32,622 nt of DNA from Cycloclasticus sp. symbiont of Poecilosclerida sp. M. Lineage in GTDB: Bacteria; Pseudomonadota; Gammaproteobacteria; Methylococcales; Cycloclasticaceae. Shown here one piece after another: positions 1 to 32,622 of the stretch; the first letter of the stretch is position 1; each line of letters begins with the position of its first letter. Below the pieces are notes generated by a model that saw only the letters and a program-made list of their open reading frames with translations, made no database searches and had not been told where the DNA came from. The translations under genes and the position numbers were made by a program. The DNA lies in contig LWTN01000225.1 of assembly GCA_002101225.1 (NCBI GenBank), forward strand, positions 1-32,622, written 5' to 3'.

Positions 1-453
1 TTTCATTATGATATAATATTATATTAATTTTATTTATTTATAATTATAGCCGTAGACGTTCTAAGCGTTTGTGGCGGTGACGACCATTACCGCTCGCCCA
101 CAATGCAATGCATTGCATGCATTCGCCTTAGTTACAAGGGTACTCCCCTGGGGAAATCCCTAGTTGTATACAATCGCTATCGGTACCGCGGTCTCCCCGC
201 GCGCGCCCGGCTGCTGTCTATATCCTCGGTATCCCCGGCCCCCCAGCCCAGCCCAAGCTATTTAAACAACAGTTCATCAGCAGACAAATCATATCAGCGA
301 CACAGTACAAGTGCGGAGGAGTAGAAAAAGAGGTACGTGCGCGTGATATTGGCCATCTCTTACAGTAACATGACTGTGACACTCCAGACTACTGCTGTAC
401 ACTTGTATATACTTCACCCAATGTACCAACACCTTGCATCTCCTTTTTAGGAC
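1..453 (+). promoter_or_regulatory. Upstream region and probable 5' leader of the TRAF gene
   Basis: This stretch precedes the TRAF start codon. The sequence directly before the ATG at 454 is a good 3' splice site (pyrimidine-rich, ending in AG at 449-450). A good donor (GTACGT at 333) lies upstream, so a non-coding first exon ending near 332 and a 118-base 5'-UTR intron are plausible. A TATTTAAA-like AT box sits near 260. Bases about 92-112 resemble the terminal repeat seen near 16584 (GCTCGCCC-ACAATGC), so an old element may lie in the promoter. No protein-coding exon is supported here. Confidence 0.4.
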
Positions 454-3400
454 ATGGGCCCCAGACTTGACCACACTCAAGACCTATTGTTGGGTAGTAA
501 TGATGGCGGGTACTCTTCAACAAATTGCACCCTGTACACTAAGAACGGGAGTGTGCGATCGAGCGACATGGAAGCCTTGACGTGTGGGATTTGTAACAAG
601 ATTCTCCGCGACCCGATGCAACTTATAACCTGCGGCTGCCGATTTTGTGACTTGTGCATTCAGAGAAAAATGAGGTGCGTTTTAACACAGACAGCAATCA
701 TTGTGCGATAACCTTATTATGTGTCTTATTTTGTGTCCTACAGTGGTAGGGATTCATACAACTGCCCAGTTGAGGGAGAGCAATTCACAAGGAGTGATGT
801 AAGTCAAGTATTTAAAAAGGTTCAGTATGGGTGTTATTTTCTAGCATGGTTTTCGAGCATAATAATGTTTTAGTTAGCTATGGCACAATTTTTTCATTCA
901 TGATTTTTTAACTTTGGCTATAATTATCCATAACTAAAGTTCTGGGGTTCCCTTACTTTATTGATCTCTCAGTGGCCATCATGACTTCATCTTCTTCTCC
1001 CGTTGCACTCCTCTCCCCCACACACACACGTACGTGCACAACAGGTGCGCAAGGACAAAGGGTGTGCCAAAGAGATTGACCAGCTGGAGGTGGACTGTCC
1101 TTCACCTGTACCTTGTGGCTGGAGGGGAAACCTGGTTAAAATGGAGGTGAGTTAGTGTCACATTAATGAAATTTTACCCCTCATTGGTGTTGATAGGGAA
1201 AGAGCCTTTTTATAACCACTGGTTGGGTGGTGCATTCCTTGGGGGTTTCCCTGGGGTTTTCCCTGGGTTTCCCCCCAGAACAGCCGAATTTGTGAATAAC
1301 TATGCACTGTATCCCCACTGCTATGAATATCAAATGAATATCAGCTATCTTCCTAACAGTTAGTGGTCATATACTTCCTGAAAAAGCCTACTGCATCCCA
1401 CTGCTATGAATATCCATAATCAACATGTTCTGTTCTTGTTGCAGACTCACCTTGAGGCCTGTCCCAATGCCATGACCAAGTGTAGAAGAAGGTGTGGAGC
1501 CAGCTTCCTGAGGACACAAGAGAATGCCCACACACAGTGCTGCCCCAAGCGTGAGGAGAAGTGTGGACACTGCTCGGCATCTGTGTCACATGACGAACTC
1601 CAGGACCACTATGCATCATGTCCCGCCCACCCAGTGACGTGTGACTACTGCCAAGAGGCCATCCCACAGAGAACACAGGTAAAGTTGTGGATATGTCGAG
1701 AGATTTGGGTGGCCTCATTAGTAAGTGTCATTGGGATCCCAATTTTAAATAATTATGCACCTTGGCTTCCATATGCTAATGCATAATTATTAGGTTAACA
1801 ACATCATGACATCAGGTACTAGGTGCTGTCTGAACAGGTGCATCCTGTGTAAACAATTAAAGGACATCCTCAATGCAACCTCTGTTATGCTGATGAGGTT
1901 ATAGTACCTGGTGAAGTCCAGTTGCTATGGTATCCAGGAAATCTGTCCATGAATCTGTGTCTTTGTGGTTGAGTAAACTTGTTTATGGCTGAGTAATTAT
2001 CATGTAACCATGTTAGTTGCCATTCATGTTTAGTTGTTGAGTAACCATGTTTAGTTGTTGAGTAACCATGTTTGTTGTTGTTTATTGTTGTTGCAGTTTG
2101 AGAAGCATCTAGAAGAAGTGTGTCAGGAGTGTGAACTGAACTGTCCTATGACTAGTGTTTTTGGTTGCTCATTCAAGGTAACTGGTGCATAACTGTATAC
2201 AGGTGTGTGCATGTGTACATGTGCATGTGCATGTGTACAATAACAATAATACATGTGCGTGTGTGTGCATGTGTATTCTGAAAGTCTCAACAATATCAAA
2301 GCCATTTATGCAATCAAAACACCAGTAATGGAAACTCCCTCAAAAATACCCCAACTAGCTAAGATAACAACACTTTCACTGTGAGTACCAGAGTACCAGA
2401 GTGTAGGGTTGAGTGTTGGGGGTTGTGGTATCACTGTGTTCTTGTAAAGTGATAATAGATGTATGTTTGGTAGTCAAGTTCTTTTTTTTTTAATTCTCCC
2501 CCACAGGGCAAACGTAATTCCTTATCTCAACATGTGATGAACAGCCACTTGCTAAACGCCATGGAGAAAGTCAGTGAACTGTCTCTTAATGTCGTCAGCC
2601 TCCAGGCAACCACCGATAGCCTCCAGGAAACCACTGATAACCTCCGAAAGGAGCTGAAGGAGAAAGATGGAAAGATCAAGATGCTGGAGAAGAAAGTCGA
2701 GGTTCTGTCGTTGCAGAAGAGCTCTAAACCCGTGGAGGATTGCACGGAGAGAGATGGATTGAAGAGGTCAGATGCCTATCATCGCGGAATGGGCACCGTG
2801 TCCAGTAGCACTAAAAGGTCAGTGGGGTACGGCCGCATGGACTCTTACGACTCAGACCACGGGAAGCCGACCTCTCACATGTTACGGGAGAGGACAGACA
2901 AGCACGACAACCAGATATCTCGCCTCCGCGAGAACGTGCAGTGCCTACAGCAGAACATGACTCAGTACAGCATCGCTGTGGACGAGCTTCGACTCCGACA
3001 GGACGTACAGGACGTGAAGACAACGCACGGGACCTTTATATGGAAGATCCCCGATATCCGTAGGAGATACCGGGATGCACTGGACCGTAAGACCATCAGT
3101 CTGTACAGCCCGCCCTTCCAGACCAGCCCACACGGGTACCGAATGTGCGTACGCGTGTACCTCAATGGTGACGGCGCTGGAAAGGGTGCGTATGTGTCGA
3201 TGTTTTTCGTGCTGATGCGTTCCGAGCACGATGATTTGCTACCGTTTCCCTTCAAGCAGTCTGTCAGGTTCACACTCCTCAACCAGGCCAATCAAGCGGA
3301 GAGCATCACCGAAGCATTCGCCCCAGACCTCAAAAGCCAATCTTTCCTAAAGCCAGAGGGGGATATGAACGTGGCTAGTGGATTTCCCAAATTTGCACGA

Positions 3401-3490
3401 CAGACAGTTTTGCAAGACGAACGTTTCACTCGTGGTAATGTGATCTACATCAAAGCACAAGTAGACTTAGCAGGTTTGGCACCAGACTAG
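454..3490 (+). CDS. TRAF-family adaptor, six coding exons (RING, TRAF zinc fingers, coiled coil, MATH)
   Basis: Coding exons are 454-674, 744-798, 1045-1146, 1445-1678, 2097-2177 and 2507-3490. All have GT-AG borders and matching phases, giving about 558 aa, the usual length of TRAF proteins. Residues 44-82 form a RING finger (CGIC, CGCRFCDLC, then CPVEGE, where the last ligand would be acidic as in the TRAF6-type CPVDNE ending). Cys/His-rich TRAF zinc fingers follow to about residue 230, then a heptad-rich coiled coil (about 240-400). The C-terminal MATH/TRAF-C domain (about 406-555) carries the hallmark strings SLYSPPFQTSPHGYRM, VYLNGDGAGKG, FPFKQSV and GDMNVASGFPKF. Family knowledge: TRAFs trimerise, bind receptor tails or adaptors and act as E3 ubiquitin ligases toward NF-kB/JNK signalling. 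The MATH domain reads like TRAF1/2/3/5 whereas the RING end reads like TRAF6, so I do not assign a number. The gene appears intact. Confidence 0.93.
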
Positions 3491-10167: not shown

Positions 10168-10361
10168 TCTTGGAGCTGTGACCTCCTTGTGCTAGCTACA
10201 TATGAACGAGTTTGCTATGCACATTAACTTTTTTGCCAGACCCCTCCTTTTGCATGTGGTGATAATTATAGTACACCTGTGCTGTGGTTTGATCAGACTA
10301 TAGTCGAGTCATACACCCTGGTCCCATGTGTATTCAGTCAACTTTCTTTTTGATTTCGCAG

Positions 10362-12072
10362 GTAGAAGTGATATTAAGGAACTTACAGTGACATGTGACA
10401 ATGCCAACCTAAAGTGCGAATGGGAGGGAGCTGTTGGGACGCTTAGGGAACATCTTGCCAAGTGCCAGTTCAGCCTAATTCCCTGCCCAAACCGATGCAC
10501 AGTTCCAGCAAGTGCACAGATCCAGCAAATGCACCCCACGTATAATCGATCAAAGTAAGTGTAACATTAACCAATGCCATGTTTCTGGATATGACTGTCA
10601 GCCTTTCCCTATAATTCATCTTCATGAGCAAGGGAAGGGATAAGGGAGGCTGACCTGAAACGCTCTCGCTGTGTATGCGTGCGTGGAGCAGGAAAGTGTG
10701 ACCTGGCTCGTCCATTCCATCTGGCCATCTGGCCTGAAATTGGGTTGACTTTGCGAGTGGGTACACACCCCTCGGCTCCCCACCCTCCCCCTCTCACCAT
10801 GCATGGCCTTAATAGCCATGGGTTCCCCCCCCCCAGCCCCCCAGCCCCCAAGGTAGACTTTGGATATGACAACTGGGGACTTACATAGTAGCCCCACATG
10901 TAATCATGATTGCAGTTTAACATCAGAAACTGCATGTGCTGTATTATAGCAAGGGTGTATAGGAAGAGAGGGCATGCAACTATAGCTAGACGGTGAAATA
11001 TAAACTGTAATTCCTTACTAGCATGTGCAACATTAATTCTCCGCCCACTTTACTAAATCACACATGACCTTACGTGATCTAGATGTAACAGTTCGCATAC
11101 TATGGAGAGTTGCATGCCCTCTCTTCCTATAAGCCCTTGATTACAACCAATTAAGGGGAGAGACCCCCATGCTCCTGAGCTATGGCCACTATGCTGTATG
11201 ATGTCATTATTTTGTATAGGGCAAAAGATAAGGTCAGGAAAGTGCTGAAAAAAGACCTAACTAGGCATCTCGATAGAGAGTGTCCAAACCGAAACCACAT
11301 GTGCGAATATTGTGGCAAGACAGGGAAGTATGAATTCATAACAAGGTCTCACGACTTCACTTGTCCTGAGAAGATGATCAGCTGCGCGAATACTGGATGC
11401 AGGTATACTCTGCAGAGGCAAGGGATGAAGAGACATCTTGATAAGTGTTTTCACACCATGATCCCGTGCAAATACATTAAACTCGGATGTCAGATGAAGG
11501 GCAAGCGAAAAGACATGGTGGTACATGAAGATGACAGCAAGTGTCATTTACGGATGGCATTAGATTCGGTGTTGAAGCTACACCAAGAAAATACCGACCT
11601 GAAAGGAAAAGTATCGAGATTAGAGAGTTGCTCACAGCCTACGTTCAAATTAACCGAGTATTCCAAAAAGAGACAATTTAACGAAGTGTTTGTATCCCCA
11701 TCCTTTTACACCAGCAGTCCAGCTGGGTATCACATGTCTATTAGCGTGCTGGCAAATGGCGACGACAGTGAGTGCGACCAGAAGTCTTACCTCTCAGTTT
11801 CAATCAATATCAAGAGGGGTGAAAACGACGAATGGTTGGAGTGGCCGTTTGTTGGCTATGTGACCATTACGCTGTTAAACCAACTGGTGGAAACCAGAAA
11901 CCTTGGTCACTTTAAGAGGACGCTGCATTTTGATGGCGTAGACTCCATAGAGGCTGGATGCACACATTTGTGTCGACACTTTATCCGCCATGACGATCTA
12001 GAAACGCATTACCTTAAGGATGACACACTGTATTTTACAGTATCAACGGATATCACTAATCCTAAGGCATAG
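10362..12072 (+). CDS. TRAF-like protein lacking a RING exon (zinc fingers, coiled coil, MATH), 5' end uncertain
   Basis: Two exons are clear: 10362-10554 (starting in phase 1 after a CAG acceptor) and 11220-12072 (stop TAG). Together they give about 348 aa. The first exon holds a TRAF zinc finger (CDNANLKCEWEG...HLAKC...CPNRC). The second adds further fingers (CPNRNHMCEYCGKTGKYE, CANTGCRYTLQR, CKYIKLGCQMKGKR), a short coiled coil, and a diverged MATH domain (SPSFYTSSPAGYHMSISV, ANGDD, WLEWPFVGYVTITLLNQ, YLKDDTLYFTV). No RING exon is visible between the preceding gene (ending 10167) and 10362. Either an upstream exon was missed, or the RING was lost and translation starts at the in-frame ATG 10328, which reads through the acceptor. 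A RING-less TRAF would bind receptors without ligase activity, as vertebrate TRAF1 does; that role is inference. Confidence 0.75.
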
Positions 12073-12396
12073 GTGCATATAGAGCTTACTAGCTATAACA
12101 CCTTGCTATGAGGTAGCTATAATTATAGATAGTTTGCAAGGCTATAATAGTAGTAGTATTGATGATTGTGTATGCATGTATGATTGTATAAGTGAATTAA
12201 GATCAACAGCTAGCTAGCTAAAATTATGGCGCCCTTATTATGCACCTGCCCCTTACTTAAAAGAAACCCTGACTTGTTAGGCTTTATCAGGAACACAATT
12301 ATGCATGATCAACATAATTATGCATGCAGACCAGGGAATTCATGGTAGGGAACCCCCCTGAAAGTATCATTCTCTACATCATCTGTAAACAACAAA
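12073..12396 (+). other. Intergenic spacer between two TRAF copies
   Basis: This is AT-rich spacer with several ATTATGCATG-type palindromes around 12299-12330. I see no exon, RNA gene or clear repeat. Confidence 0.5.
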
Positions 12397-14349
12397 ATGG
12401 CTTCCAAGTACAACTTCATAGTAGAACCAGACAGTGGCCTACACAGTGTCTGATATGCCTGGAAGTAGCTGAGGAGCCAAGGCAACATGAGAAGTGTGGG
12501 AGGCTGTTCTGTAAGAAGTGCTTGGATGAGTATGGAAAGTCCTAACTGCAGGGCTCAACAGCCACAGTAGATTCCTAGGCTTCAAACCCATAGAGAAAGC
12601 TACGGCACCACAAGTGTGTGTTTACTTGGTCTTGCAAGTGAGACAATACAGTGTGGTGGGCAAGCTTGTATCTGAGGTTTTGCAACACAACCACTCCTAG
12701 GCTCCTGTGAACACTACCGTGTACGTGTGCATCCAGATTTATAGACTGATATAGTGTATCTTTTGCAGGCACATAGGAATAGGTATAGTGCCATGGACCC
12801 ACTACTTTTTGACTAGTGCCAAGATGTACGTAGTGCTGGAGTCATCGGTACATACAGTGTCATGCCACTAGATCATAATAGAGATCCCATCACCCTGTGC
12901 ATGCATTGTTGCAATTGCATCTATAAGTGCAAAGTGATCAAAATTGAAACTGAGATTATTACTGCGTTTCCGATACACTCTAATATCTATGGAAGTATAG
13001 ATATAATAATAATTATGACTTGTGTTGCTACACCTGACCATGCATGAACCACTGGGCTATCAACATTCTATATTTTCAGGTAAAAGGGATATTAAAGCAC
13101 TCCAGGTGAAATGCAGCAATGACAACCGAGAGTGTGAGTTGAAGGGAACTGTTGGTATGCTAGAGAAACACATGGACACATGCGAGTTCACTCTACTTCC
13201 CAATGCAAAGTTCCAGCGGATGCCAGCCACTTAAGAGCTCAGTAAGTTTGAAGTAGCTATTGAGTGATTGGCCACTGATTGCTGTGTGCTCTAGCCCTAG
13301 CTCTAGCCCTATAGCCTATGCTACATGAAAACAAGTGCATTAATGCTTCATGTAGTGTTTGACCAGTGCATAAAGGGCCCTCGATAATGTCTAATACGGG
13401 GCTGGGGACCAATAATTATAGCACTCTATAGCTATTATGTAGTAGTAGCACACTTTTTGATCTCAGAATGAAATAATTATAGCTACACAGTGTGACAAGG
13501 TCTGTATGTCATTAAAGACCTTGCATCGATCCCAGCCCCCTGCATCAGCCTTGTTCATAATCACGTTTATATCTGTTGTGTTGTTGTTATGTCATTGCTG
13601 TTGTGCCGGGGTGTTATGTTGTTGTTGTTATTGTTGTTGTTATGTGTTGTTGTTATGTCATTGTTGTTATGTTGTTGTTGTTGTTTAGAGAGCAGTGTCC
13701 TCCTGCTTTCGTTACATGGAACAAGTACACAGTAAACACTTTTGAAAACGGACTGTACATATGTAGCCCATAAAGCCCAGTCCAATTAAAATAGCTATAA
13801 TAAGGAAATTATTATGATGTACGTAGAAAGTTGGACATAATCAAAGAAGTAATGAGAAAAGACCTACCAAAACATATGGAGGAAGAGTGCCCTAACAGAG
13901 ATTATCAATGTGAGCATTGCGGAAAGGAAGGGAAGTATGCTTACATCACACTGAGTCACGATAAAAAGTGCCCAAAGAAAGTCATTAATTGCAGTAATAC
14001 TGACTGCCAAGACGCCATACAACATCACCGTTTAAAGAGACATCTTGAAGGATGTGCACACACAGAAATACCATGCAAGTACGTTAAACTTGGATGTCAA
14101 ATGCAGATGAAGCGAAGAGACATGCCAGCACATGAAGTGGATGGTAATTACCATATCATCATGGCATTAGATTCTGTTGTCAAATTGCTAGAAGAAAATG
14201 TTGACTTGATAAATAAAGTACAGAAATTAACACAACATCCCATAACCGATAGCAGTGACAGTGATGATGAAAGTGAAGATAAAAGTGAAGCTGAAGAGAG
14301 TGTCCTCAGTCTTCTACAAAGATTAAAAAGGACAAGTCGATCATTATGA
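12397..14349 (+). pseudogene. Decayed TRAF copy: frameshifted RING and zinc finger, MATH missing
   Basis: Three pieces align with the neighbouring TRAF. First, 12397-about 12580: MASKYNFIVEPDSG opens in one frame and QCLICLEVAEEPRQHEKC plus FCKKCLDEYGKS continue in another, and then PNCRAQQPQ appears in a third context, so the RING is broken by small indels. Second, 13080-about 13240 (acceptor CAG): a zinc-finger exon reading RDIKALQVKC...HMDTCEFTLLP, which then loses the last Cys pair to a deletion and stops. Third, 13827-14349: an open exon with MRKDLPKHMEEECPNRDYQC, CEHCGKEGKYAY, CKYVKLGCQMQMKRRD and a coiled coil, ending in an acidic Ser/Asp/Glu tail and LLQRLKRTSRSL where the paralog continues into MATH. 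The last piece could still be expressed alone. As a whole I call it a pseudogene, because the RING breaks would prevent a normal TRAF product. Confidence 0.65.
13567..13688 (+). repeat. GTT-rich microsatellite
   Basis: Imperfect TGTTGT units are interrupted by ATGTCATTG and ATGTTG variants, between the second and third pieces of the decayed TRAF copy. It produces spurious Cys/Val-rich frames. Confidence 0.85.
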
Positions 14350-14621: not shown

Positions 14622-17600
14622 ATGGCTGGCAAATTGAGCTCACTACTAGCCAACTACGGGCTGACAAAAAGAGATATCAGCAAAAAGATATCTGCCAAAT
14701 ACATACTGGCTATCTCCCGCTCTTCTTGCACGAAATGGAGGTCTCTACCTGCCTATCTGGAGATGGACACAATTGTGGCAAAGGACATCGATCGATTCGG
14801 ATCTGCACTGGATGAGATAGAAAAGAGAGAGAAGTTTCTCAATGAATGGCAGGAACAGAAGGGAGATGAAGCCACTTACAAGAGCCTCATCTGTGCTCTC
14901 CTGGAGTTAGAGTGTAGGCAAGATGCCGAGTTTGTGTGTAAGCAGTTGACGAAAGATGCTGCTTCAACCACTCCAACACCAACACAACATGCATCAGGCT
15001 CATCTAACACAGGTAAGCTAGGTGTTTGTGGGTCATCTTTCAAGCCTGACTGGTGCACATTATAGTTATACAGGGGTGGAGTTATAGGTATCCGGGAGTT
15101 GGAAATAGGGGTGGGGTTAGTCTTCACTTATTGCAGCATTGATTACATGCACATCACTAGTTTTTCAGTACTTTGTACTGGAGGTGGCACATCCACCTCT
15201 CTCCCACACCCTCCACCTCAATGTGGTATATTATACAGTGGTGCAGTACAGAGGTTTTCAGGTTGCTTAATTGACACAAAAATTTGCCCATTCAGTGGTA
15301 TTATATATCGCCGCATGGGTTTAATTTCGCGCATGTGCAAATTTTTGTGTCAAGCAACTCTATAGTAAACCGCTACTGCGCATGCGAGTGCTTTGAAGTT
15401 CATTGGGGTGAGCCTGAGCGAGTCCCACCTTAGCGTAGTGACTGTTGAAATAACTAGGCGAATGCCGCTCGCCCCAATTATATGTACGGACGGACGGTAG
15501 TTCAACGGTTAAGACCCCTTTTTTTTTTCATGGGCAGTCCATTTATATTTTATCTGTTCACGAGCCCCACCCCCTATTGAGCAGCTGATGCATGTCAGAT
15601 GCTATCATGATGGATGAACGTTCCCATGCTGTGAGGGAGAGGAGGAGACGTGCGAACTCCGAGTACTACAGAAATAGGAGAGCTGCTGCAATAGAATCAG
15701 ACCTGCAGGAGCAAAGGCGGGGGTAAGTGATGGAGCGGTTAGGAAGAAGGGATGCCCAGAGTGATGAGGCCAGGCAGGCTCAACTGCAGCATAGGCGGCA
15801 GGGGAAAGCTGCAGGACTGAGGAGGCCAGGCAGGGCAGGCTGCAGCAGAGGCGGCAGGGAGATACTTCCCGCAGAGCAGCAGAGACCGAGGTGGCCAGGC
15901 AGGACAGGCTGCAGCAGAGGCGGCAGGGAGATACTGCCCGCAGAGCAGCAGAGACAGAGGATGCCAGGCAGGGCAGGCTGCAGCAGAGGCGGCAGGGAGA
16001 TGCTTCCCGCAGAGCAGCAGAGACAGAGGAGGCCAGGCAGGCCAGGCTGCAGCAGAGGCGGCAGGGAGATACTGCCCGCAGAGCAGCAGAGACAGAGGAG
16101 GCCAGGCAGGGCAGGCTGCAGCAGAGGCGGCAAAGAAATGCTACCCACAGAGCAGATTCTGAGGATCAGAATCAGTCTACACAGGGTATGCCAATGCCAT
16201 TGTTGACATGAATAAGTACTGTATGCTGTAACTCTTGTTTCTTTTGTTACGTGGGTGTGGTAGTGGGTGTGGTACCGGCTCGATCAGGCTCGCCCCAGGC
16301 TCCGTATTCCTAGTATGCGGGCTCATCGCGCGCGCGATATCGGCAGTGAAGATCCGCCTAGTCGCGCGAGCTCGCAGTGCTGCAAGTAAGACGGAAGACA
16401 CGCTTTATATCGCATTAACAGTAAGTACATGCATGTCAAGTGTTATATTCTAGCGACTTCACAGTGCCAAGATATACAGCGTAGGCATTATACTCTACGT
16501 GCGCCTAGATGTTGTTTTAGGCTATTAGGCAGGTTTCTTGTTTCTCTCTAGTTCTCTCCATAATAACTAGACGAATACAATGCATTGTGGGGCGAGCCTG
16601 AGCAAGTGCAAGGATAATAGGACCAGTAGTTTTGCCTGCAGTACTAAAAGTCCAGCTGCATTGCATTTGGCAGCTGCTGCAAGTGACACCATGTACCCAA
16701 GACAATTTTGCTAGATAGCTAGCTATAGGAACAGATGATGGATTCTAGCAAAGCCCTCAAGTCATCAGATCCTGATCTGATGACTGAGAGCTTTGGTAGG
16801 ATCCAGCAGCCGATTGCCTAAGGGCAGTAGATCGCAGATCAGATGGTTGTCTCTGTTATGTCTTTAACGAATCTTATATTAGAAGTGAACTCAACGAGAC
16901 TAATGCAAAAGACTAATGCAAAAGACTCAATCGACTGAAAGTTCTAAAGCATGCTGACAAAACCAATAAACCACACGTGAATAGACAATGATACAAAGGT
17001 TAGACTAACATACATACATACATACATAACATACATACATACATAATACATAACATACATAATACATAACATACATACATACATAACATACACAGTGCAC
17101 AGTCACTATAGTCTTCACTAAAAGCACCTAGGTATGATGGTCGTCTCCGCTAAAAATGCTTAGAACGTACGGTTACATAGCTAGTAGAAATTTTCCCGCC
17201 TACTCCCTAGTGTGGGGCTTGCTCATGCTCGCCCCAATTAACGATGACACCAACAGTAGCTAGATTATAATATAGCTACAGAAATGTGCAGTCGTGTAAC
17301 TATTTTTGGCTTGGCTCAGGGTTTCGATGTTTGCTCGTTACATGCCAAAAGTGAGCGAGTAAACATTACTGCTTTCATTGCCTATAGACGCATGGATAAA
17401 GCTCTACGTAGCTTTAGCTGCATGGTGTTAGTAGATAATTTGATATTGCTCATGCATTTATTTAATTTTATAGTGGATGAAACAAGCAAATTAATCAAAA
17501 TTGTTGTCGATGATAATTCCTCTGCAAGAGGGTTGGCTTGTATTATATGCAATGATTATCTGGGTTGTAAAAGGCTAGGTACTTTATATGGTGCTATTAA

Positions 17601-20600
17601 GGATTCTGAGGCATTGGATTCTACTTTTAAACACTTAAATTTTGCCACAATCGTTAGGCCAAATTCTAAGAAAGATGTAATAGAAAATCTTATTCGAGCA
17701 ATTGCCCTCTATCCTAACTATCCACCAACATACAATTGTTTTGCTATTATTTTTTCTGGCCACGGAGGAAGCAAAAGGAAAGTTTATTCTAATGCTGGTG
17801 AAGAAGTGGATATAGAATCTGCACTTATCAAGCCTTTTGATGTTAAAGATACTCGTATTAAAGATTTCCCTAAACTTGTATTTATTGACGCATGCAGAGG
17901 TCGTTTGCGCACTAAAGGAACTTTGAAGGAGGAGTTACCCAAGCCAGTAAATTTTCTAATAGCTTACTCAGCACGGTATGGCTATGTGTCCTATGAAACC
18001 GATAGCGGCGGCATTTGGATGCAAAAGTTAGCAGCTGCAATTAAAGGCAACACCACTTCATCTATTGGAGATGTTGTATCAAGAGTGAATGACGAAGTTA
18101 TAAAAGAGGGAATTGAACCCCCTGAATATCACAACACAAATGTTACCATTGTTCTCACTGGTTAGTACAAGTACATGTTGCATAATTATAGATAGCTATA
18201 ATTATCTATGGCTAAGCTACGATTAGCGAGGAAGATTTTTTTCATGAACAGTGTGTTTGCTCACTCGTCGATAAGGGTTTTGAAAATCATATCAAGAGGT
18301 ATACATAGCTAGGGAAATCCTAAGAGAAGTTTACTTTCTAGAACTGGCCCGAGTCTGGAACATGTGGAGTGTGGCTTTTAGATTATTGATGCTCCACTTA
18401 GACAGTGTGCATGCTTTCGCTCTTGTCCACACAGAAAATCACTCTGAGCAATAATCTGAGAACTTGCCCAGGATAATTATTAATAGACCATGCAAGGATG
18501 GGGTGAGGCTGGGTTAAGGTACGTGGTCTACCATCCTTTTTGGAGATCAGTTATCCTTTGGAGACCACACCATGCCAGCCAATATTCATGTACTGTAGGT
18601 TCCAGTGTACATCCAGCCACCCCTTTTTGGACACCGGCCAATATTCATGTTCTATAATATTCTTTACAGTGTACAATCCAGCCCCACCCCATTTTGGAGA
18701 TTATGATCTCTAGGCTCAAAATATCTCATTACTGATTGATAAACTTCTGGCATGTCGCTTTTGCTATTAAGTTTCAATAGTACTATTTTTTTTCAGATAG
18801 TGGGCCTATCTAGCAAAAACAGCCATGTTTCCATTAAGTTTCATTAAGAAAACCACAATCCTAGCTTAAAGAAAGGCATGCCCATTCACACATTTTCCCT
18901 AGCCATTCTGGAAAGTTTTATCCAGTGCAGTGGGACAATTAATATATAATAGCCCTGTTTTCCTATTGTAGCACCTGACAGTTCAGCAAGCGCAAGCAAG
19001 CGCAAGCAAGCGCAAGCAAGCGCAAGCAAGCGCAAGCAAGCGCAAGCAGTGATCAGGGACCACGACGCATAAGTAAGTTGAAGATGATGTGACTATAATT
19101 TGATCATTATTATTACATTCATTTTGCCCACAGTTACTGATGGTCCAGAAATCATGGCTGAAACTACAACTACAAGTTAGTAAATTAATTACTCTTGGTT
19201 TGAGATCATTTTGCTGTCTATGAACTTGGAGTTCCATTAAAAAAAGTCGATAACTAGAATACGACAAAATATTTCTCCGAAATAAAAAGGCCATGTATAG
19301 GGTAGATTGCCTTCAGCTAACCAGCTTCCTACTATAATGGTATATTATAGCTATAACCCTACATGGCCTTTTTATTTTGGCGAAATTTTTTTGCGTACAG
19401 AGCTTTGCAAGTTAGTTGTCAGGTTGGAATGTGAAATGTTTATCAGCACTTTGATGTTGTTGTCTTGCTAATCAATGGCTAGTCTGAAGTCTCTCTTGTG
19501 GCTTTGGTGTGTCCCATGTGACCACATACTGATGATAATCGCAACATAGTAAAGTCAACTGTAATTTCAAAATCAATGCTTGATCTGCTGGTATAGCAAA
19601 GCCCTCAAGTGGATCCTAGCAAAACCCTCAAGTCATCAGCTGCTGGATCCTAGCAAAGCTCTCATGTCATGGCTGCTGAATCCTAGCCTTAAGCTACCAG
19701 CTAGCTGCTGCAAAGCCAGGCTGCTTAAATTGCAACACTATAGCTTAGGCTCGCCCCACAATTATTATGATGATCATTTGCTATGATTAGTTGTAACTTC
19801 TCAATCCTGTCTGTTATATTTTTTTCCCCTACAGAATATACCCCTGAAACTGTTATGAGTAAGTGGATTTACAATAATAATGGCCTATCATTTTAGCCCT
19901 ATAGCAACATCATTACATGTCATAACTCCCCTAGCCCTAGCCGCCTTGTCATAACTCCCCTAGCCCTAGCCACCTTATCATAACTAGCCACCTTGTCATA
20001 ACTCCCCTAGCCCTAGCCACCTTATCATAACTAGCCACCTTGTCATAACTCCCCCAGCCCTAGCCACCCCTAGCCCTAGCCGCCTTGTCATAACTCCCCC
20101 AGCCCTAGCCACCTTATCATAACTAGCCGCCTTGTCATAACTCCCCCAGCCCTAGCCACCCCTAGCCCTAGCCGCCTTGTCATAACTCCCCCAGCCCTAG
20201 CCGCCTTGTCATATCTCGCCCAGCCCTAGCCGCCTTGTCATAACTCCATTTTGTGTAATACAGAAAGAGAGATATTATTTTCTGCTCAACTAAATTCCAT
20301 AACTTGGATAAACTCCAGCGGTGAAAAGAAGGAATTGAAGCTTAGGGTGGAGATGTCTGTGAGATGGTATACATTGGGACAGAATGTGAGGATCCCCAAT
20401 GCAACGTTGGAAGGATATAGACAACAGCATTTCCATAATAATGAAGCATGCATGATTGCCGTTTTTGATGAGTGGATTACATTAAAATCTAAGAAGGTGT
20501 GTTACCTATTGATAAAACTCACAGCTTCTTTAACACCTCATTATTAGTATCCACCTACTTGGGAAGGGCTTGTGAAGTGGCTGAAGAACGAAGGGTTGAA

Positions 20601-20667
20601 TAACTCAGCAGAAAAAATTGAGCAGGCTGCACAAGATTGTGAGAGCACCCTTTATGAGACTGAGTAG
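14622..20667 (+). CDS. Death domain - caspase/paracaspase-like protease - death domain protein
   Basis: Exons 14622-15012, 17474-18160, 19134-19175, 19835-19858, 20264-20496 and 20548-20667 give 498 aa. The internal junctions are phase 1 except the last, which is phase 0. Residues about 1-115 form a death domain (CTKWRSLPAYLEM, FLNEWQEQKGDEATYKSL). Residues about 148-358 form a C14 protease with His227 in FSGHGG and Cys271 in FIDACRG, then the small-subunit motif NFLIAYSARYGYVSYE. Residues about 382-498 form a second death domain (VRWYTLGQNVRIPNATLEGY, PPTWEGLVKWL). Asp269 precedes Ala-Cys where caspases have Gln, and Glu305 replaces the Arg of the SWR motif. The p20-p10 linker is short and lacks Asp, so activation by cleavage is unlikely. 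Death domains normally recruit such proteases to signalling scaffolds. An optional exon at 18972-19072 changes the C-terminus. Main uncertainty: whether all exons belong to one transcript. Confidence 0.75.
15262..15358. mobile_element. Foldback element (GTTGCTTxxxTGACACAAAAATTTGC arms)
   Basis: The left arm GTTGCTTAATTGACACAAAA and its inverted partner TTTTTGTGTCAAGCAAC bracket about 97 bp, with only a small indel between arms. It is non-coding, in intron 1 of the protease gene, and is probably a MITE relic. Confidence 0.55.
15402..15478. mobile_element. Mini inverted-repeat element with ATTGGGG[TC]GAGC ends
   Basis: ATTGGGGTGAGC at the left and GCTCGCCCCAAT at the right are near-perfect inverted ends of a 77-bp non-coding element. 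The same terminal sequence bounds a larger element at 16584-17240 and appears alone near 19747 and near 92. Confidence 0.6.
15607..16211 (+). pseudogene. Degenerate STPR-like ORF: tandem 23-residue Arg/Gln/Ala repeats
   Basis: From the ATG pair at 15607/15610 the frame reads MDERSHAVRERRRRANSEYY and reaches a stop at 15724. Repeats resume in the same frame to about 15813, then shift by one base into the frame that stays open to the TGA at 16209. From about 15825 the DNA repeats every 69 bp, encoding units such as ARQARLQQRRQGD + TARRAAETEE, exactly 23 residues. A 23-residue repeat of this composition matches the STPR (score-and-three-residue peptide repeat) DNA-binding module first known from silkworm FMBP-1. 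Here it sits inside intron 1 of the protease gene, with a stop and a frameshift, so I call it a decayed insertion rather than an exon. Origin from a mobile element is inference. Confidence 0.6.
16255..16390 (+). other. CpG-rich island-like patch in the intron
   Basis: A compact GC- and CpG-rich stretch (around GCTCATCGCGCGCGCGATAT, CGCCTAGTCGCGCGAG) stands out from the AT-rich surroundings and ends at 'gctgcaagtaag', which could act as a donor. It contains another GCTCGCCCC motif. It could be an alternative first exon or promoter of the protease gene, or the internal part of an element. No recognisable protein. Confidence 0.3.
16584..17240. mobile_element. Putative non-autonomous DNA element with ATTG(T)GGGGCGAGC...GAGCAAG termini
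   Basis: The left end ATTGTGGGGCGAGCCTGAGC followed by AAG and the right end GGCTTGCTCATGCTCGCCCC followed by AAT are inverted over about 25 bp. The interior (about 657 bp in total) has no ORF. It contains a near-perfect palindrome at about 16758-16795 (GTCATCAGATCCTGATCTGATGAC) and an ACAT microsatellite. The segment 'agcaaagccctcaagtcatc' recurs near 19600-19650 beside another GCTCGCCCC end, pointing to a second, degraded copy. Confidence 0.5.
17009..17093 (+). repeat. ACAT microsatellite
   Basis: CATA tetranucleotides are interrupted by regular ACATAA variants, inside the element described at 16584-17240. Confidence 0.9.
18972..19072 (+). CDS. Optional linker exon made of a 10-bp tandem repeat
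   Basis: A good acceptor (TATTGTAG) and donor (GTAAGT at 19073) bracket 101 bases, 60 of which are six near-identical decanucleotides (CGCAAGCAAG). Joined in phase 1 to the protease exon it adds PDSSASASKRKQAQA-type residues and ends in TAA directly before the donor, so inclusion removes the second death domain. The neighbouring exons are multiples of three and join if this one is skipped. With one more unit or two fewer (7 or 4) it would also be a multiple of three and read ...SDQGPRRI into the next exon. The exon is inferred from splice signals; inclusion in mRNA is unproven. Confidence 0.45.
19258..19397. mobile_element. Foldback element, AAAATAAAAAGGCCATG arms
   Basis: The left arm around ATTTCTCCGAAATAAAAAGG and CCATGTATAGGGT is inverted against ACCCTACATGG and CCTTTTTATTTTGGCGAAAT. 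Arms are about 40 bases with few mismatches around a roughly 55-base loop. It is non-coding, in an intron of the protease gene, and consistent with a MITE. Confidence 0.6.
19919..20245 (+). repeat. Intronic minisatellite of CATAACTCCC-CCTAGCC-GCCTTGT units
   Basis: Units of roughly 19-50 bases built from 'cttgtcataactccc', 'ccagccctagcc' and 'gccttgt/accttat' are arranged in higher-order patterns and end about 18 bases before the acceptor of the second death-domain exon. No coding role is visible. Confidence 0.85.
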
Positions 20668-22300: not shown

Positions 22301-23212
22301 TCATACTGAGCAGTTAGCCACCGATTGCAAACTGAGGAGCAGGTGTGTGGAATCAAAGGACAGGCCTAATGAACTGTCATATGAATCCAGCCACTTATCG
22401 AAAACGCTGTCTTTGGTTAGTTCAATGTAACCTGATGTAGCAGGGTCATAGTAAGACGTTGTAATATCTGCAATCTTCCAACCATCACAGCTTCCAGCAT
22501 CCAAACTTACTTGTTTGATGTCACAGAGCTTAATACACCTCGCTGTACAAACTTCTTTCACGAATGGCTTGTTACGGTCCGTATCTTCCCCACCTATTTC
22601 AACCTTTTCTTCTCCATCAGTTAAACGGAAGACAATGTAGTGGTGCCTTGAAGAAGAGAAACCAGAATCTGTTGTATCTCCCGTGGTGCCTGAAATTTGA
22701 AAGTCTGAAAAGCATATATCCAATAAATTTAGAGGAAGGTGCCTTGCGTTGTACCACCTTTGGTCTAAGTTGCTGCGATCTCCATCAAGCCACTTATTGA
22801 AAACAACGTCACTTGTTAATGGAACGTAGTCATTCTGGTCTTGATACTTGGCCTGCGTTATAACTTGCGCTATGAACCATCCATCATCTCCACCTGATTC
22901 CAGATGCACTTGAGAAATCTCAGATCTAGGAGTGCATTCAAGATCGAATTCATTCGTGTATTCCTGATTGAGCCCCACTGGGCCCACTATGTCTCTCCTC
23001 ACTTCATCTCCATTATATAGTGTGAGTACAATATGATGTACCCGATTCGAGCGAAGGTTAGCATTCTCTCTGTCTCCTGTATTGATCGAAACTCTCATTG
23101 TCTCAATGCATGCTGTCGACTCAGAGGCGTAGGCAAAGTCAGCTGCACCTCCAAACAGACAGAGCACAACAAAAGCAATTGCTGGTGTGAATTGTAGCTG
23201 CTTCGAATTCAT
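22301..23212 (-). CDS. Secreted tandem PLAT/LH2-like protein, paralog 1
   Basis: This intronless ORF encodes about 303 aa from the ATG at 23212; an in-frame ATG eight codons upstream (23236) lacks support from the paralogs. The N-terminus is a signal peptide (MNSKQLQFTPAIAFVVLCLF, cleavage expected after ...FAYAS). Two homologous modules of about 130 aa follow. Each has an I-x-TG opening, an HHIVL/HHYIVF strand, a DGW[FK]IA strand and a closing D-VF[ND]KWLD block. The strand pattern and the GW and WL motifs resemble PLAT/LH2 beta-sandwich domains, which bind lipids or proteins; this is pattern recognition only. Paired Cys residues at module borders fit an extracellular protein. Two closely similar genes follow on the same strand at 23731-24600 and 26631-27677. 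Confidence 0.8.
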   Translation of the reverse strand: MNSKQLQFTPAIAFVVLCLFGGAADFAYASESTACIETMRVSINTGDRENANLRSNRVHHIVLTLYNGDEVRRDIVGPVGLNQEYTNEFDLECTPRSEISQVHLESGGDDGWFIAQVITQAKYQDQNDYVPLTSDVVFNKWLDGDRSNLDQRWYNARHLPLNLLDICFSDFQISGTTGDTTDSGFSSSRHHYIVFRLTDGEEKVEIGGEDTDRNKPFVKEVCTARCIKLCDIKQVSLDAGSCDGWKIADITTSYYDPATSGYIELTKDSVFDKWLDSYDSSLGLSFDSTHLLLSLQSVANCSV

Positions 23213-23236
23213 GATATCGAGTTGATGTGAGAACAA

Positions 23237-23730
23237 GCTTCACAAATTGACGGTGAGCTCATTGAACATAGAATTTCCCGCCAAACAAGCTTCAGCCCTT
23301 GCTTGGTATACCTACCTAGCTATGTGAATGTTTTCATTTTTTCATTGCAATAATTTCCTGGAATTCAGCAAATGCTGTGAAGTATAAGGATTCTGAAGGT
23401 GAACGAGGAAAGAGACACTACAAGATAAGCTAGTGCATCTATTACCATTTATGCATCTTTTATGTCATATCAAATTCTAGTTAGAGTGCATCTCCACCCA
23501 CTGACTTCTACCCATCAAGGAACACATTTTTATAATACCAGAAGTTGAGGGAGCACACTCCAACAATAGCAGCGTACAGCGCAGGATGGCAGACTAGTCA
23601 GAATATTAGTCAGGCATTTGCCCCCCCACCCAAATCTGAACCATGACTCCACTTTATCATCAACTACATACAACAATAGTATGATGTAAAATGCCTCCAC
23701 TATTGGCACTGTTATCTTGAGGCCACACTG
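23237..23730 (-). promoter_or_regulatory. Spacer between paralogs 1 and 2
   Basis: This holds the promoter side of paralog 1 and the 3' flank of paralog 2. No ORF is supported. A 'gagtgcatctccacccactgacttctacccatcaag' motif near 23486-23520 is related (reverse complement) to the 23-bp minisatellite at 25880-26185 and to motifs near 28370 and 29225. Confidence 0.4.
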
Positions 23731-24600
23731 TTAGTTTGCCACCAAACTCAGGAGCAAGTGTGTCGTATCATAGTCCAAGTCATTTCTATTGGAGTCCAAA
23801 TACCTATCGAAAGCACTGTCATTGGTCAGTTCAACGTAACTTGATGAAGCAGAGTCGTAGTAAGAGGTTGCAATATCTGCAATCTCCCAACCGTCACTAC
23901 TTTGGGCATCCAAACTTACTCGTTTGATGTCAGTAAGTTTAATACACCTCTCTGTAGGGGTTGCTTTTGTGAATGGCGTGTTACGGTTCAAATCTTCTCC
24001 ATTAATTTCGACCCTTTCTTCTCCGTCAATTAGATGGAAGACAATGAAGTGGTGACGTGCAGAGGTAAATCCAGAATCAGATGAGTCTCCCGTGGTGCCT
24101 GTAATTTGAAAGTCTGAGAAGCACCTATCCGATAAATTTAGAGGAAGACGCCTGGCATTGTACCACACTTGATCATAGTTGTCGCGGTCTCCATCAAGCC
24201 ACTTATTGAAAACAGTGTCAGTTGTCAGTGGAGTATAGTCAATCTGGTCTCTATGTTTGGCCTGTGTTATAACTTGCGCCATGAACCAGCCATCATCTCC
24301 ACCTGATTCCAGATGCACTTGAAAAATTTCAGATTTAGGAGTGCATTCAAGATCGAATTCATTCGTGTATTGTTGATTCTGTGACACTGGGCCCTCCATG
24401 TCTCTCCTCACTTCAGTTCCATTATATAGTGTCAACACAATATGATGTGTCCCATTAAAACCGGCTTCAATTTTGTCCAAAGTATCAATCAAAACTCTCA
24501 TTGTCTCAATGCATGCTGTCGACTCAGAGGCATAGGCAAAGTCAGCTGCACCTCCAAACAGACAGAGCACAACAAAAGCAATTGCTGGTAGCTGCTTCAT
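23731..24600 (-). CDS. Secreted tandem PLAT/LH2-like protein, paralog 2
   Basis: This is an intronless ORF of 289 aa starting at 24600 with MKQLPAIAFVVLCLFGGAAD, a signal peptide nearly identical to that of paralog 1. The two modules align throughout with paralog 1 (ACIETMRV, HHIVLTLYNGTEVRRD, GGDDGWFMAQVITQAK, VFNKWLDGD; then CFSDFQITGTTGDSSDSGF, DGWEIADIATSYYD, DSAFDRYLDSN). The C-terminus is shorter (ends HLLLSLVAN) and lacks the NCSV tail. High similarity, tandem placement and the same strand indicate recent duplication. Molecular function is unknown; an extracellular lipid- or protein-binding role is inferred from the domain guess. Confidence 0.8.
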   Translation of the reverse strand: MKQLPAIAFVVLCLFGGAADFAYASESTACIETMRVLIDTLDKIEAGFNGTHHIVLTLYNGTEVRRDMEGPVSQNQQYTNEFDLECTPKSEIFQVHLESGGDDGWFMAQVITQAKHRDQIDYTPLTTDTVFNKWLDGDRDNYDQVWYNARRLPLNLSDRCFSDFQITGTTGDSSDSGFTSARHHFIVFHLIDGEERVEINGEDLNRNTPFTKATPTERCIKLTDIKRVSLDAQSSDGWEIADIATSYYDSASSSYVELTNDSAFDRYLDSNRNDLDYDTTHLLLSLVAN

Positions 24601-24778
24601 ATTGAGAACAAGCTTTTCCTGTCAGCTCTTTTCTGCCCAGTGTTGTTATTGAGGCAGCATTCCCAGCAACAAATGCAACCCTTGGTATGTTTGCAATCCT
24701 TTTCTAGTTTCACCAGCCTATATAATATAGGTGCAATTTATAGCCTTGCTCTTTTTTTTGTGCACAGGAAACTTGATG

Positions 24779-26630: not shown

Positions 26631-27677
26631 TTAGACTCCAGGATCTGGCCACCAAAAACTCAGGAGCACGTGTGTGGCATCATAGGACAAGTTGGGTTGA
26701 TTGGTATCCACCCACTTATCAAAAACACTGTCTTTGGTCAGTACAACGTAACTTGATGAAGCAGAGTCAAAGTAAGATGTTGTAATATCTGCGATCTTCC
26801 AACCGTCACTGTTTCCGGCATCCAAACTTACTTGTTTGATGTCACAAAATTGAATGCACCTCTCTGTAGGAATGTCTATTGTGAATGGCTCATTACGCTT
26901 TGCAGAATCTCCATTTATTTCGACCTTTTCTTCTCCATCAGTTAAATGGAAGACAATGTAGTGCTTTCCAGTGAATCCAGACTTAGATGCGTCTGCTGTG
27001 GTGCCTGAAATTTGAAAGTCTGAAGAGCATGATTCAACTAATAAATTTAGAGGAAGATGTTTAGGATCATAATGCTTCCTGGTTTGATCCCCATCAAGCC
27101 ACTTATTGAAAACAATGTCACTTGTTAATGGAGCATAGTCACTCTGGTTTTGATATTTGGCCTGCGTTATAATTTGCGCTATGAACCAGCCGTCACTAGT
27201 ACCTGCTTCTAGGTACACTTGAGAAATTTCAGACCTACTAATGCATTGAAGATCATCAAAGTCCTTCGCATATGGCTTGTTTTTTCGCACTGTGTGTTCC
27301 AGGTCTCTCCTCACCTCATCTCCATTAGTTAAACTGAGCACGATATGATGAGTCCCTCTAGAAAAGCCAGCATTTTTTACGTTTCCCGTGTCGATTAAAA
27401 CTCTCAATGCTTCAATGCATGGTGTTAACAAAGAGGCATGGGCTGAGTCATCTTCATCATCGTCTGAGTCTTCCTCCTCTTCACCATCATCAGTAGCCGA
27501 GTCTTCATCGTCCTGTTGCAGAACAGCATCAAGGTATTTCTCCAGAAGCACCTGGATCCTGTCCAGTCCTTCATCAGCAATGGCTGCATTGCTGGCCTTA
27601 ACTGTGTGTGGAAGTGCAGCTGCACCTCCAAAGAGACAGAGCGCAATTATTGCTGGTGCGAATTGTAGCTGCTTCAT
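26631..27677 (-). CDS. Secreted tandem PLAT/LH2-like protein, paralog 3 with an acidic N-terminal segment
   Basis: This is an intronless ORF of about 348 aa. I place the start at 27677 (MKQLQFAPAIIALCLFGGAA) because it matches the paralog signal peptides; the frame stays open 47 codons further upstream but without similarity. After the signal peptide there is a segment not found in the other two: a predicted helix (LDRIQVLLEKYLDAVLQQ) followed by a run of Asp/Glu/Ser residues (about 48-75). The two standard modules follow (CIEALRVLIDTGN, HHIVLSLTNGDEVRRD, SDGWFIAQIITQAKYQ, VFNKWLDGD; CSSDFQISGTTADASKSGF, DGWKIADITTSYFD, DSVFDKWVD). The acidic insert could be a propeptide or a Ca2+-binding stretch; this is inference. 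The C-terminus (SFWWPDPGV) also differs. Confidence 0.8.
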   Translation of the reverse strand: MKQLQFAPAIIALCLFGGAAALPHTVKASNAAIADEGLDRIQVLLEKYLDAVLQQDDEDSATDDGEEEEDSDDDEDDSAHASLLTPCIEALRVLIDTGNVKNAGFSRGTHHIVLSLTNGDEVRRDLEHTVRKNKPYAKDFDDLQCISRSEISQVYLEAGTSDGWFIAQIITQAKYQNQSDYAPLTSDIVFNKWLDGDQTRKHYDPKHLPLNLLVESCSSDFQISGTTADASKSGFTGKHYIVFHLTDGEEKVEINGDSAKRNEPFTIDIPTERCIQFCDIKQVSLDAGNSDGWKIADITTSYFDSASSSYVVLTKDSVFDKWVDTNQPNLSYDATHVLLSFWWPDPGV

Positions 27678-27724
27678 ATTGAGTTGATGTGGAAACGGAT
27701 GAGGGCAATTTTTCGCTGGCAGTT

Positions 27725-27733
27725 CTTTTATAC
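27725..27733 (-). promoter_or_regulatory. Possible TATA box of paralog 3
   Basis: On the minus strand GTATAAAAG lies 48-56 bases upstream of the start codon, which would leave a leader of about 20 bases. The region 'gttgatgtg...aac...tgcc[ag]' between it and the ATG is partly shared with the other paralogs, but neither of those shows an equally clear TATA box. Confidence 0.35.
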
Positions 27734-29550
27734 TGCAAGTGCATGCCATTAAGGCGCATGAGTAGTGCTGGGTGCGTGACTGTTTAATTTTTTGGAATTC
27801 ATGTATACAATTGTACAAACACTGAATGTTATATCATTTGTGCTGAGGGAGGATTCTGAAGGTCTACAAATGAAAGAATGAGGAAACAGACACTATAATT
27901 GGTACTATTCACTTAAGTGGCTGCAAATCTGTAGCTAACTGAGAAATAATATTATGTTATTTGAAATAATGTTAGGGGGGAAGTTCAAAAATTGGGGGGG
28001 GGGAGATTTCCCCTGCTACCCCCTTAGATAAAACCCTGAGACAGTGCATGCATGCATGCATGGGCACAGTTATCAATAATTATTCTTCCATAAAACAAGC
28101 TGACAATTGCACTATAGCATGCAGTGGCTAAGGCAAAAAAAGTGGTAGGAGTAGCTACCAGGTTCTGTAGCTACCCCATGCATTGGGCCATAATTATAGG
28201 GCCATATAGCTAGTGGTTCAGTGAATAATGGTCACTTGCACTGTATGGAGTCCCAAAGTGGTCTATATAAGTGTATATTTCAACCTGTGCACAGGTACTA
28301 TGTAGGTGTATCCATTGGCTTCTAGAGCATTGACTCCATAGTTGAGCTAGAGCGAGCGCATCTCTACCCATTGACGTCTACATTTAGAGTGCATCTCTAC
28401 CATTTAGAGCACATCTCTACCAACATCGAGCACATTTAGAGCACATCTCTACCCATTGAGCACATTTAGAGCACATCACACTAGCTTTGCTGTTTTAGTG
28501 TGAACAGAACACTATAGCCATGTGACCAGCACTCCCCCTCAATCAAGCATGCTCCTCTAGCTCCAGCCGACTGCCCCTCAAGCTTGCTCCTCTAGCTCCA
28601 GCTGTGGGACCTGCACTCCCCCTCAAGCATGCTCCTCTAGCTCCAGCCGTGTGACCTGCACTCCAAGTGTAGCAGTTCATAGATGTGATCAGCACTTGTG
28701 CATGTTTCGGAGTCCAGAATCTTGTACACACATTCTTGGGCAGTTTAGTATAGGTCTTCTTGAGGAAATACTTAATTATTGAACAATTAACCACAAACTC
28801 AACCTTGGGCTTCATTCACATGCACACACATACGTACACCTACCCACACATACATTGCTTACTCAATCTCTTTGAAAGAGGGGCTTGTGGTTTGTCATAT
28901 AGCTTGTAGCATGACCATAATATCATACATGTCTCGTGCTGCACATGCAGACACACATGACATAATATTCTACGTATATCTTTGAAAGAGGCCAGCTAGG
29001 GGGCCTGTGGTTTGTCACTACTATAGCTCATTTGAGGTGAGCCTATAGTAGTCACCTTGTGCACCCCATGAACTCATGAACCAAGTAATCAGTCCCTTTA
29101 GTATGAACTCATGGATCAGCAAGTCAACCATTTGGTGGCCATCACCCCCTTAGTGCAAACACTTTGTGACCATCACACATTTTTAGTGCAGACACTTGGT
29201 GAAAATCACCCCCCTTAGTGCAGACACATCTCTACCCATCGAGCACATTTAGAGCGCATCTCTACCCACATTGAGCACATTTAGAGCATATATCTACCCA
29301 TCGAGCACATTTAGTACCCACGCATCTCTACCCAGTGGAGCACATACATAGCAGGAGGTTGTGGGTCATGTCCTACCTGGGCTCAAAGTTACTTTCCATC
29401 ACATGCACATGCATCAGAGATAAAATCCATATTAGCCCTAGCCCTTGGCCCTTCATTGGCCCTTAATTGCCCAGGATGAGGGAGGGCCTTCCAGTTCAAG
29501 TTTATGCACCCACGTCACGTCACCTACATTGCACCATTGTATCTGCATAA
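27734..29550. other. Intergenic region with scattered short repeats
   Basis: No gene is supported. About 28370-28490 and 29222-29345 contain many copies of 'gagcacatttagagc' and 'acatctctacccat'; about 28531-28660 holds three or four copies of 'ctccccctcaagcatgctcctctagctccagc'. Two segments (about 28869-28905 and 28979-29020) repeat 'tctttgaaagagg...ggcctgtggtttgtca'. The minus-strand open frame across 28543-28815 is a product of the second repeat. Confidence 0.55.
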
Positions 29551-30243
29551 TTAGTCAACAGAAATATTGAAATTGAACCTGAATTCATCACTGCTCACCT
29601 CATGCACAGTTTGTTCATGGGACCTGTAATAAGTCCCCACAGTTTCTATGACTTCTGGTTTCACGGCTGCCAGCTTCGTTGGCTTGGTAACGAGGCCCTC
29701 AGGGATGGGCTGGGTCTTCATCTTGGAGCGGTAGTCACCCAATAAACTCCTCATGAGCAGACGCTTCTTCGGGAGGGGAGTCTTCGCAGCCCTGAGTGTG
29801 TGAATGCTCCTTTCATTCTGCTTCTTCTGGGATTTATTGGCTCCTGGTCTGAGCATGCCCAGTTCGAGCCGGCCTATACACCACTCCAGTTCCTCCTCAA
29901 AGGAAGTGATGGAGGTGGTGGTAGTAGTGGTGGTGCCACTGGTGGAGGTGGTGGTGGTGGTGGGGGAGGGCGTCTCTGAACCAGCACCAAATACGTCCAC
30001 CTTTTTAGCCTTTTCTGTCATCCTTTTGCTGTTGCTTTTGCCACCTTTACTACTTGCAGCTGCTGGAGACTTCTTTCCTTCATTTACAGTTCTTTCCCCC
30101 TTATCTACTCCATTCTCTGCCTTTCCCCCCTGGTCCACAGCGCTGTGAGCGACATCCGCAGAACTAGCACTCACAACGGCTCTTCTTTTCTTCTTTGCTT
30201 TCTTCTTGGAAGAAACACTATTGCTGGACACAGCAGACTCCAT
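29551..30243 (-). CDS. C8orf33/UPF0488-like protein
   Basis: This intronless ORF of 230 aa starts at 30243. The N-terminal half is low-complexity: Lys-rich near the start (SKKKAKKKRRAVVS), then Ser/Ala/Gly/Lys, then a long Thr/Ser run. The C-terminal half is the conserved part: FEEELEWCIGRLELGMLRPG, a Lys-rich stretch, RAAKTPLPKKRLLMRSLLGD, YRSKMKTQPIPEG and a terminal FRFNF. These blocks match my memory of the vertebrate C8orf33 (UPF0488) family: E-x-LEWC, a helix, then KRQLMR...GDYR. The molecular role of that family is not established. The basic clusters suggest nuclear location. It is divergent with the cysteine synthase-like gene and may share its promoter. Confidence 0.7.
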   Translation of the reverse strand: MESAVSSNSVSSKKKAKKKRRAVVSASSADVAHSAVDQGGKAENGVDKGERTVNEGKKSPAAASSKGGKSNSKRMTEKAKKVDVFGAGSETPSPTTTTTSTSGTTTTTTTSITSFEEELEWCIGRLELGMLRPGANKSQKKQNERSIHTLRAAKTPLPKKRLLMRSLLGDYRSKMKTQPIPEGLVTKPTKLAAVKPEVIETVGTYYRSHEQTVHEVSSDEFRFNFNISVD

Positions 30244-30559
30244 TAATTCCGAGCGAAGCGAGGCTATACTTGTGGTCGATGGTGGTGTAGTCTGGAAAGG
30301 GGTGTGGCCTCCAGACTAGGTTGACGACCACATTGGAAAGGAATCTGGCTACCAAACTTCTCATGCTCACTTAGACTACCGCTATCTTGCAAAGCATAGA
30401 ATAGCGCCATAGCTTCTCCAGGCCGCTTATGCATAATAATTATGATGACCATTATCTGGTACGGTATCGTCATAAACAAAAGTCGCATTTTTTGTGTTTC
30501 TTGTGTCAACGATGCTGTACCAGTTATATTCTTTCCTCGTCAGTCGGCGGGTTGTACAG
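30244..30559. promoter_or_regulatory. Head-to-head intergenic region (putative bidirectional promoter)
   Basis: About 316 bases separate the two start codons on opposite strands. I see no clear TATA box, which is usual for housekeeping bidirectional promoters. No ORF is supported inside. Confidence 0.4.

Positions 30560-32622
<2,063 letters not shown>

Follow-up and report, generated by a model that had tools for sequence, protein, structure and literature searches.

A caspase-lineage protease with a paracaspase-type S1 pocket on an animal-type contig in a bacterial genome bin

The DNA analysed here (the window, 32,622 nucleotides) is contig C225 of a 2.32 Mb bin whose bacterial 16S gene lies on a different contig. 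On the window are spliced genes that encode RING, TRAF zinc finger and MATH domains, as well as a weak match to a secretin-type receptor and microsatellites. Long ORFs cover a fraction of 0.30 of it, whereas in eight larger contigs of the bin the stretches that were read reach 0.79-0.87. A bacterial origin of the protease gene that is the subject of this analysis is ruled out both by this difference in coverage and by the lack of bacterial gene structure. The window was binned wrongly because its G+C content equals that of the other larger contigs of the bin. Positions 1-32622 are thus an animal-type contig, a binning contaminant within a bacterial bin, and a sponge is a plausible source.

Directly upstream of the protease gene and on the same strand are three tandem TRAF-family genes or remnants (451-3487, 10304-12069 and 12318-14346, all +) containing RING, zf-TRAF, coiled coil and MATH regions, the third (12318-14346) seemingly without MATH. 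This adjacency recalls MALT1-TRAF6 signalling, but the position of neighbouring genes counts for little as evidence in animals. On the minus strand, three tandem paralogues (22304-23239, 23734-24621 and 26634-27833) encode a secreted two-repeat protein, the repeats having in common a DGW...TSY pattern reminiscent of PLAT/ATS3-like domains; the two of the three paralogues that were scanned gave no Pfam match above cut-off. Also present are a DUF4615 protein (29554-30315, –; Pfam 7e-22) and a PLP-dependent enzyme of the PALP/cysteine synthase-like kind (31128-32516, +), whose exons have a tandem repeat of about 110 bases between them.

The protease gene begins with exon 1 (14622-15012, +), which has an ATG in a good start context, encodes a death-like domain (residues 1-130) and ends in phase 1 at a GT donor (GTAAGC) at 15013. 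Intron 1 (15013-17473, +) has gtaagc...tttatag borders and contains a nested ORF of 23-residue STPR repeats (15627-16208, +; Pfam STPRs E 3e-6) that is possibly a mobile-element remnant. The TTTATAG acceptor restores the frame in exon 2 (17474-18160, +), a single exon that holds the whole caspase domain, both p20 and p10. If exon 2 is left unspliced at its end, an in-frame TAG at about 18160-18162, overlapping a GTTAGT donor at 18161, closes a 360-residue model (14622-15012 spliced to 17474-18162). The protease gene probably extends past 18162, because the GT donor at 18161 joins four further predicted exons in phase. These are, all on the plus strand, exon 3 (19134-19175; linker VTDGPEIMAETTTT, with a ttgcccacag acceptor and a gttagt donor, frame-consistent in phase 1), exon 4 (19835-19858; linker KYTPETVM, phase 1), exon 5 (20264-20496; the start of a C-terminal death domain) and exon 6 (20548-20667; the remainder of that domain, ending ...STLYETE before the stop). 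Exons 1-6 join in frame, with phase 1 at four junctions in succession and then phase 0, to give 498 residues with the stop at 20667. Another candidate exon, 18972-19072, breaks the reading phase and was left out of the gene model. A short tandem repeat of AAGCGCAAGC-like units lies 3' of the caspase exon (18982-19048); it could be read as an exon but would break the phase.

The terminal domains give modest scores. Exon 1 matches Pfam Death with an E value of 3.4e-4 and 21.1 bits, slightly below the cut-off of 22.6, and its top PDB match is the THOC1 death domain (E 0.004), while exons 5 and 6 joined match Pfam Death over profile positions 14-85 of 86 (E 0.0055), also below the curated cut-off. 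Each of the two death domains is thus individually weak, and it is the combination of six phase-consistent exons with Pfam Death matches at both ends that makes the predicted order of death domain, caspase and death domain in a 498-residue protein likely.

The caspase domain encoded by 17474-18160 is complete (Pfam Peptidase_C14, E 3.1e-27) and matches caspase-7 in the PDB at 2.8e-13. In the numbering of the 360-residue model, the motifs SGHGG (225-229), FIDACRG (267-273), NFLIAY (290-295) and SYE (303-305) are present, and the catalytic dyad, His227 and Cys271, and its flanking motifs are intact. An earlier, sequence-only reading of this DNA had pointed to SGHGG, PKLVFIDACRG, Asp269, NFLIAY...GYVSY and Glu305, all of which we find, and its numbering implies the same splice. 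It had also described a short inter-subunit linker without Asp, and this is residues 274-289 (17902-17949, +; RLRTKGTLKEELPKPV), which lie between ACRG and NFLIAY and comprise 16 residues, five of them Lys or Arg and none of them Asp, so that the linker has no Asp processing site.

Published structures show that caspase-7 recognises P1 Asp by means of Arg87, Gln184 and Arg233, and that MALT1 recognises P1 Arg by means of Asp365, Asp462 and Glu500 (PMC4357240). We aligned the window protease with nine caspases and 20 C14B proteins, namely MALT1, two metacaspases and 17 bacterial orthocaspases. The reference letters were matched to PDB chains for caspase-7 and MALT1 and, over the full stretch, for caspases-2, -6 and -9, CED-3 and both metacaspases; the other four of the nine caspases are caspases-1, -3 and -8 and drICE. 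Only four columns are fixed within each group yet different between them, Arg/Ser/Gln/Arg in the caspases versus Leu/Gly/Asp/acidic (Asp or Glu) in C14B, and the window protease has the C14B state at all four. Leu168 (17584-17586, +) replaces the first S1 Arg, Arg87 of caspase-7, in a column that has Arg in all nine caspases and Leu in all 20 C14B proteins. Gly226, which precedes catalytic His227 in SGHGG (17758-17763, +), occupies a position that is Ser in 9/9 caspases and Gly in 20/20 C14B, and Asp269, two residues before catalytic Cys271 in FIDACRG (Asp269-Ala270-Cys271, 17887-17895, +), one that is Gln in 9/9 caspases and Asp in 20/20 C14B and that aligns with MALT1 Asp462. Glu305 (17995-17997, +) replaces the Arg of the SWR motif (caspase-7 Arg233) and aligns with MALT1 Glu500; alignment to the caspase profile instead puts this Arg opposite a one-residue gap adjoining Glu305, and there is no Arg under either alignment.

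The basic Arg/Gln/Arg set is therefore absent from the window protease, which has Leu168/Asp269/Glu305 instead. By alignment, its acidic set is Asp174/Asp269/Glu305 versus Asp365/Asp462/Glu500 in MALT1, although Asp174 is also conserved in caspases and hence is not diagnostic. At the 24 other discriminating columns, the window protease has the caspase state at 11, the C14B state at two and neither at 11. The C14B state at 4/4 pocket columns versus 2/13 decided columns elsewhere gives a hypergeometric probability of about 0.006 (worked by hand), and random drift onto exactly these four residues has a probability of ~5e-5 from background residue frequencies, which is a rough hand estimate. An S1 pocket of the paracaspase/metacaspase kind is thus supported by the alignment. 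The acidic, paracaspase-type pocket of the sequence-only reading agrees both with our alignment and with the residue maps in PMC4357240, but that reading had missed Leu168.

The body of the domain gives a different answer. It scores 69.5 bits on a caspase-only profile versus 26.7 on a C14B profile; for comparison, the values for MALT1 are 17.2 with the caspase profile and 99.9 with a C14B profile from which MALT1 had been left out. The pairwise z of the domain is 25.6 with caspase-7 versus 2.9 with MALT1. The domain is divergent, with a long branch and 28-30% identity to caspase-7. In a tree whose C14B set contains no poriferan type 2 paracaspase, it nevertheless falls with the caspases and not with C14B, with support of 99/98 for all columns and 100/99 without the four pocket columns. 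Forcing it onto MALT1 is rejected (AU test, p-AU 0.006), and placements inside and outside the caspase crown have p-AU values of 0.2-0.4, neither being rejected. AlphaFold2 gave a pLDDT of 42 from the single sequence, and a usable model (pLDDT 79, pTM 0.80) took 16 orthocaspase rows. Although this model was built on C14B homologues, all 50 structural matches listed are caspases, the top one being zymogen caspase-8 (Z 27.2, rmsd 2.2 over 213 residues, model residues 5-229). MALT1 is not among the 50 matches listed (VIA-align), an absence that excludes nothing alone. Judged by its C14A fold and its phylogeny, the window protease is of the caspase lineage and is not a paracaspase. The earlier description of the enzyme as more paracaspase than caspase consequently applies to the pocket only; for the domain as a whole, it is contradicted by the profiles, the trees, the AU test and the structural comparison, all of which point to true caspases.

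We now put forward a reading that we consider rather probable, namely that the gene encodes an animal caspase-lineage protease with a paracaspase-type S1 pocket that cuts after Arg or Lys rather than Asp and is activated through death domains and dimerisation, the specificity and the activation being what we infer from the pocket and the predicted domains. We propose that one or two death domains would gather copies of the protease on a receptor or adaptor platform, where the caspase domains could dimerise and become active without cleavage, by analogy with MALT1 and the initiator caspases. As the pocket suggests, the P1 residue of its substrates would then be Arg or Lys instead of Asp. The protease itself may stay a single chain or may clip itself at the Arg/Lys-rich linker, a candidate site of the kind used in metacaspases. 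Because P1 Asp would be poorly accepted by an acidic pocket, neither canonical caspases nor the protease itself would be processed by it at Asp, and maturation by caspase cleavage at an Asp in linker 274-289 would be ruled out by this proposal.

Any such proposal must be weighed against the possibility that the protein is a pseudo- or regulatory caspase like c-FLIP, which binds and dimerises and whose pocket drifted once selection was lost. A changed pocket does not by itself imply that specificity is new, because the altered active-site residues of c-FLIP accompany a loss of activity; the window sequence is divergent and its branch long, and lost or altered active sites are known in c-FLIP(L) (PMC7586951) and in mouse caspase-12 (PMC11121540). 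However, c-FLIP is without both dyad residues (PMC7586951), while in the window protease His227, Cys271 and the motifs around them are intact, and its changes, instead of being scattered, reproduce exactly the set found in a different functional pocket, so we regard a pseudo-caspase as unlikely. Still less probable, in our judgement, is that the gene encodes an ordinary paracaspase, either a poriferan type 2 form or a reduced type 1 relative of MALT1, and that it resembles caspases through convergence or through noise in the alignment. All four pocket states do match MALT1 or the orthocaspases, Porifera are reported to have type 2 paracaspases (PMC5978004), and the possible N-terminal death domain has a counterpart in MALT1. 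The profile scores and the rejected MALT1 grouping nevertheless oppose it, as does the grouping with caspases that persists when the pocket columns are removed (in the set without poriferan type 2 sequences), and we found no match to an immunoglobulin domain in the spliced protein or in the scanned nearby ORFs.

Least probable of all, and in our view very improbable, is an enzyme that is still specific for Asp or Glu, with the S1 charge supplied by another basic residue. Some basic residues are indeed close to the active site along the chain, in the Lys/Arg-rich linker and at Arg298, where loop L5 begins. But Arg298 aligns with Val226 of caspase-7, seven residues ahead of the S1 Arg, and an acidic P1 residue would be repelled by the acidic side chains at the two S1 positions of L4 and L5. 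Within the favoured reading of a caspase-lineage protease cutting after basic residues, the acidic pocket on a caspase body may be either ancestral or a reversal. A tentative and on balance doubtful extension is that this lineage split off before the Arg/Gln/Arg pocket arose and has kept an ancestral pocket for basic P1 residues on a caspase body, which would make it a living intermediate on the way from the paracaspase type to the caspase.

Scans of the viral_contigs and genome_contigs collections, which are without eukaryote genomes, found no relatives with either the protein or an alignment of it with caspase-7 and caspase-3 as the query. The pattern PK-(four hydrophobic residues)-DACRG, which does match the window, has no matches in genome_contigs, and K-(four hydrophobic residues)-DACRG has none in viral_contigs. 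There are no other C14 genes in the bin, none in 60 related genomes resembles the window protease, and a literature search found no paper on a DACRG caspase. Similar genes may well lie unnoticed in sponge genome databases.

Strict cleavage after Asp defines the caspases and is a property confined to animals, while the P1 residue is Arg or Lys for the para- and metacaspases (PMC11121540, PMC4357240). With a paracaspase pocket on a caspase body, the window protease would allow the switch between the two to be tested by exchanging a few residues in both directions within a single scaffold, and it may throw light on how cell-death proteases came to change their specificity. If the proposal is true, the host has a death-domain protease apart from the Asp-based caspase cascade. 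It should be noted that not every C14A match is safely annotated as an Asp-specific caspase.

Among known systems, the C14A caspases, with human caspase-7 and caspase-8 as the best matches, share with the window protease the p20-p10 fold, the motifs PKL-F-I-x-ACRG and GYVS-Y/W, the placement in the tree and Z scores of 26-27; it differs from them in having Leu/Asp/Glu in place of Arg/Gln/Arg, a GHG instead of an SHG box and a short linker without Asp. MALT1, a type 1 paracaspase in C14B, shares the equivalents of Asp462 and Glu500, Leu at the Arg87 position, the GHG box, a possible N-terminal death domain and a linker without a caspase site, but the window protease has no Ig domains that we could find and has a predicted second, C-terminal death-like domain, and the two do not group together in the tree. 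The bacterial orthocaspases and eukaryotic metacaspases (C14B) have the same Leu/Gly/Asp/acidic pocket set, yet differ in overall sequence, the bacterial members mostly having DACRNNP or DACRDNP and the metacaspases DSCHSG. Sponge caspases, as in Geodia cydonium, share the animal caspase lineage and perhaps the phylum. A caspase-3-like (Asp) activity was reported for the Geodia cydonium caspase (Wiens 2003, reviewed in PMC2779465), so canonical Asp-specific caspases also occur in sponges and both specificities may coexist there. Type 1 paracaspases have been reported only from cnidarians and bilaterians, and type 2, which have the protease domain only, from sponges among others (PMC5978004); the window gene is a poor fit to both descriptions alike. 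The window protease is neither a caspase proper, for which its S1 pocket fails, nor a paracaspase, for which its phylogeny fails, but a variant within the caspase lineage whose pocket is of the paracaspase type.
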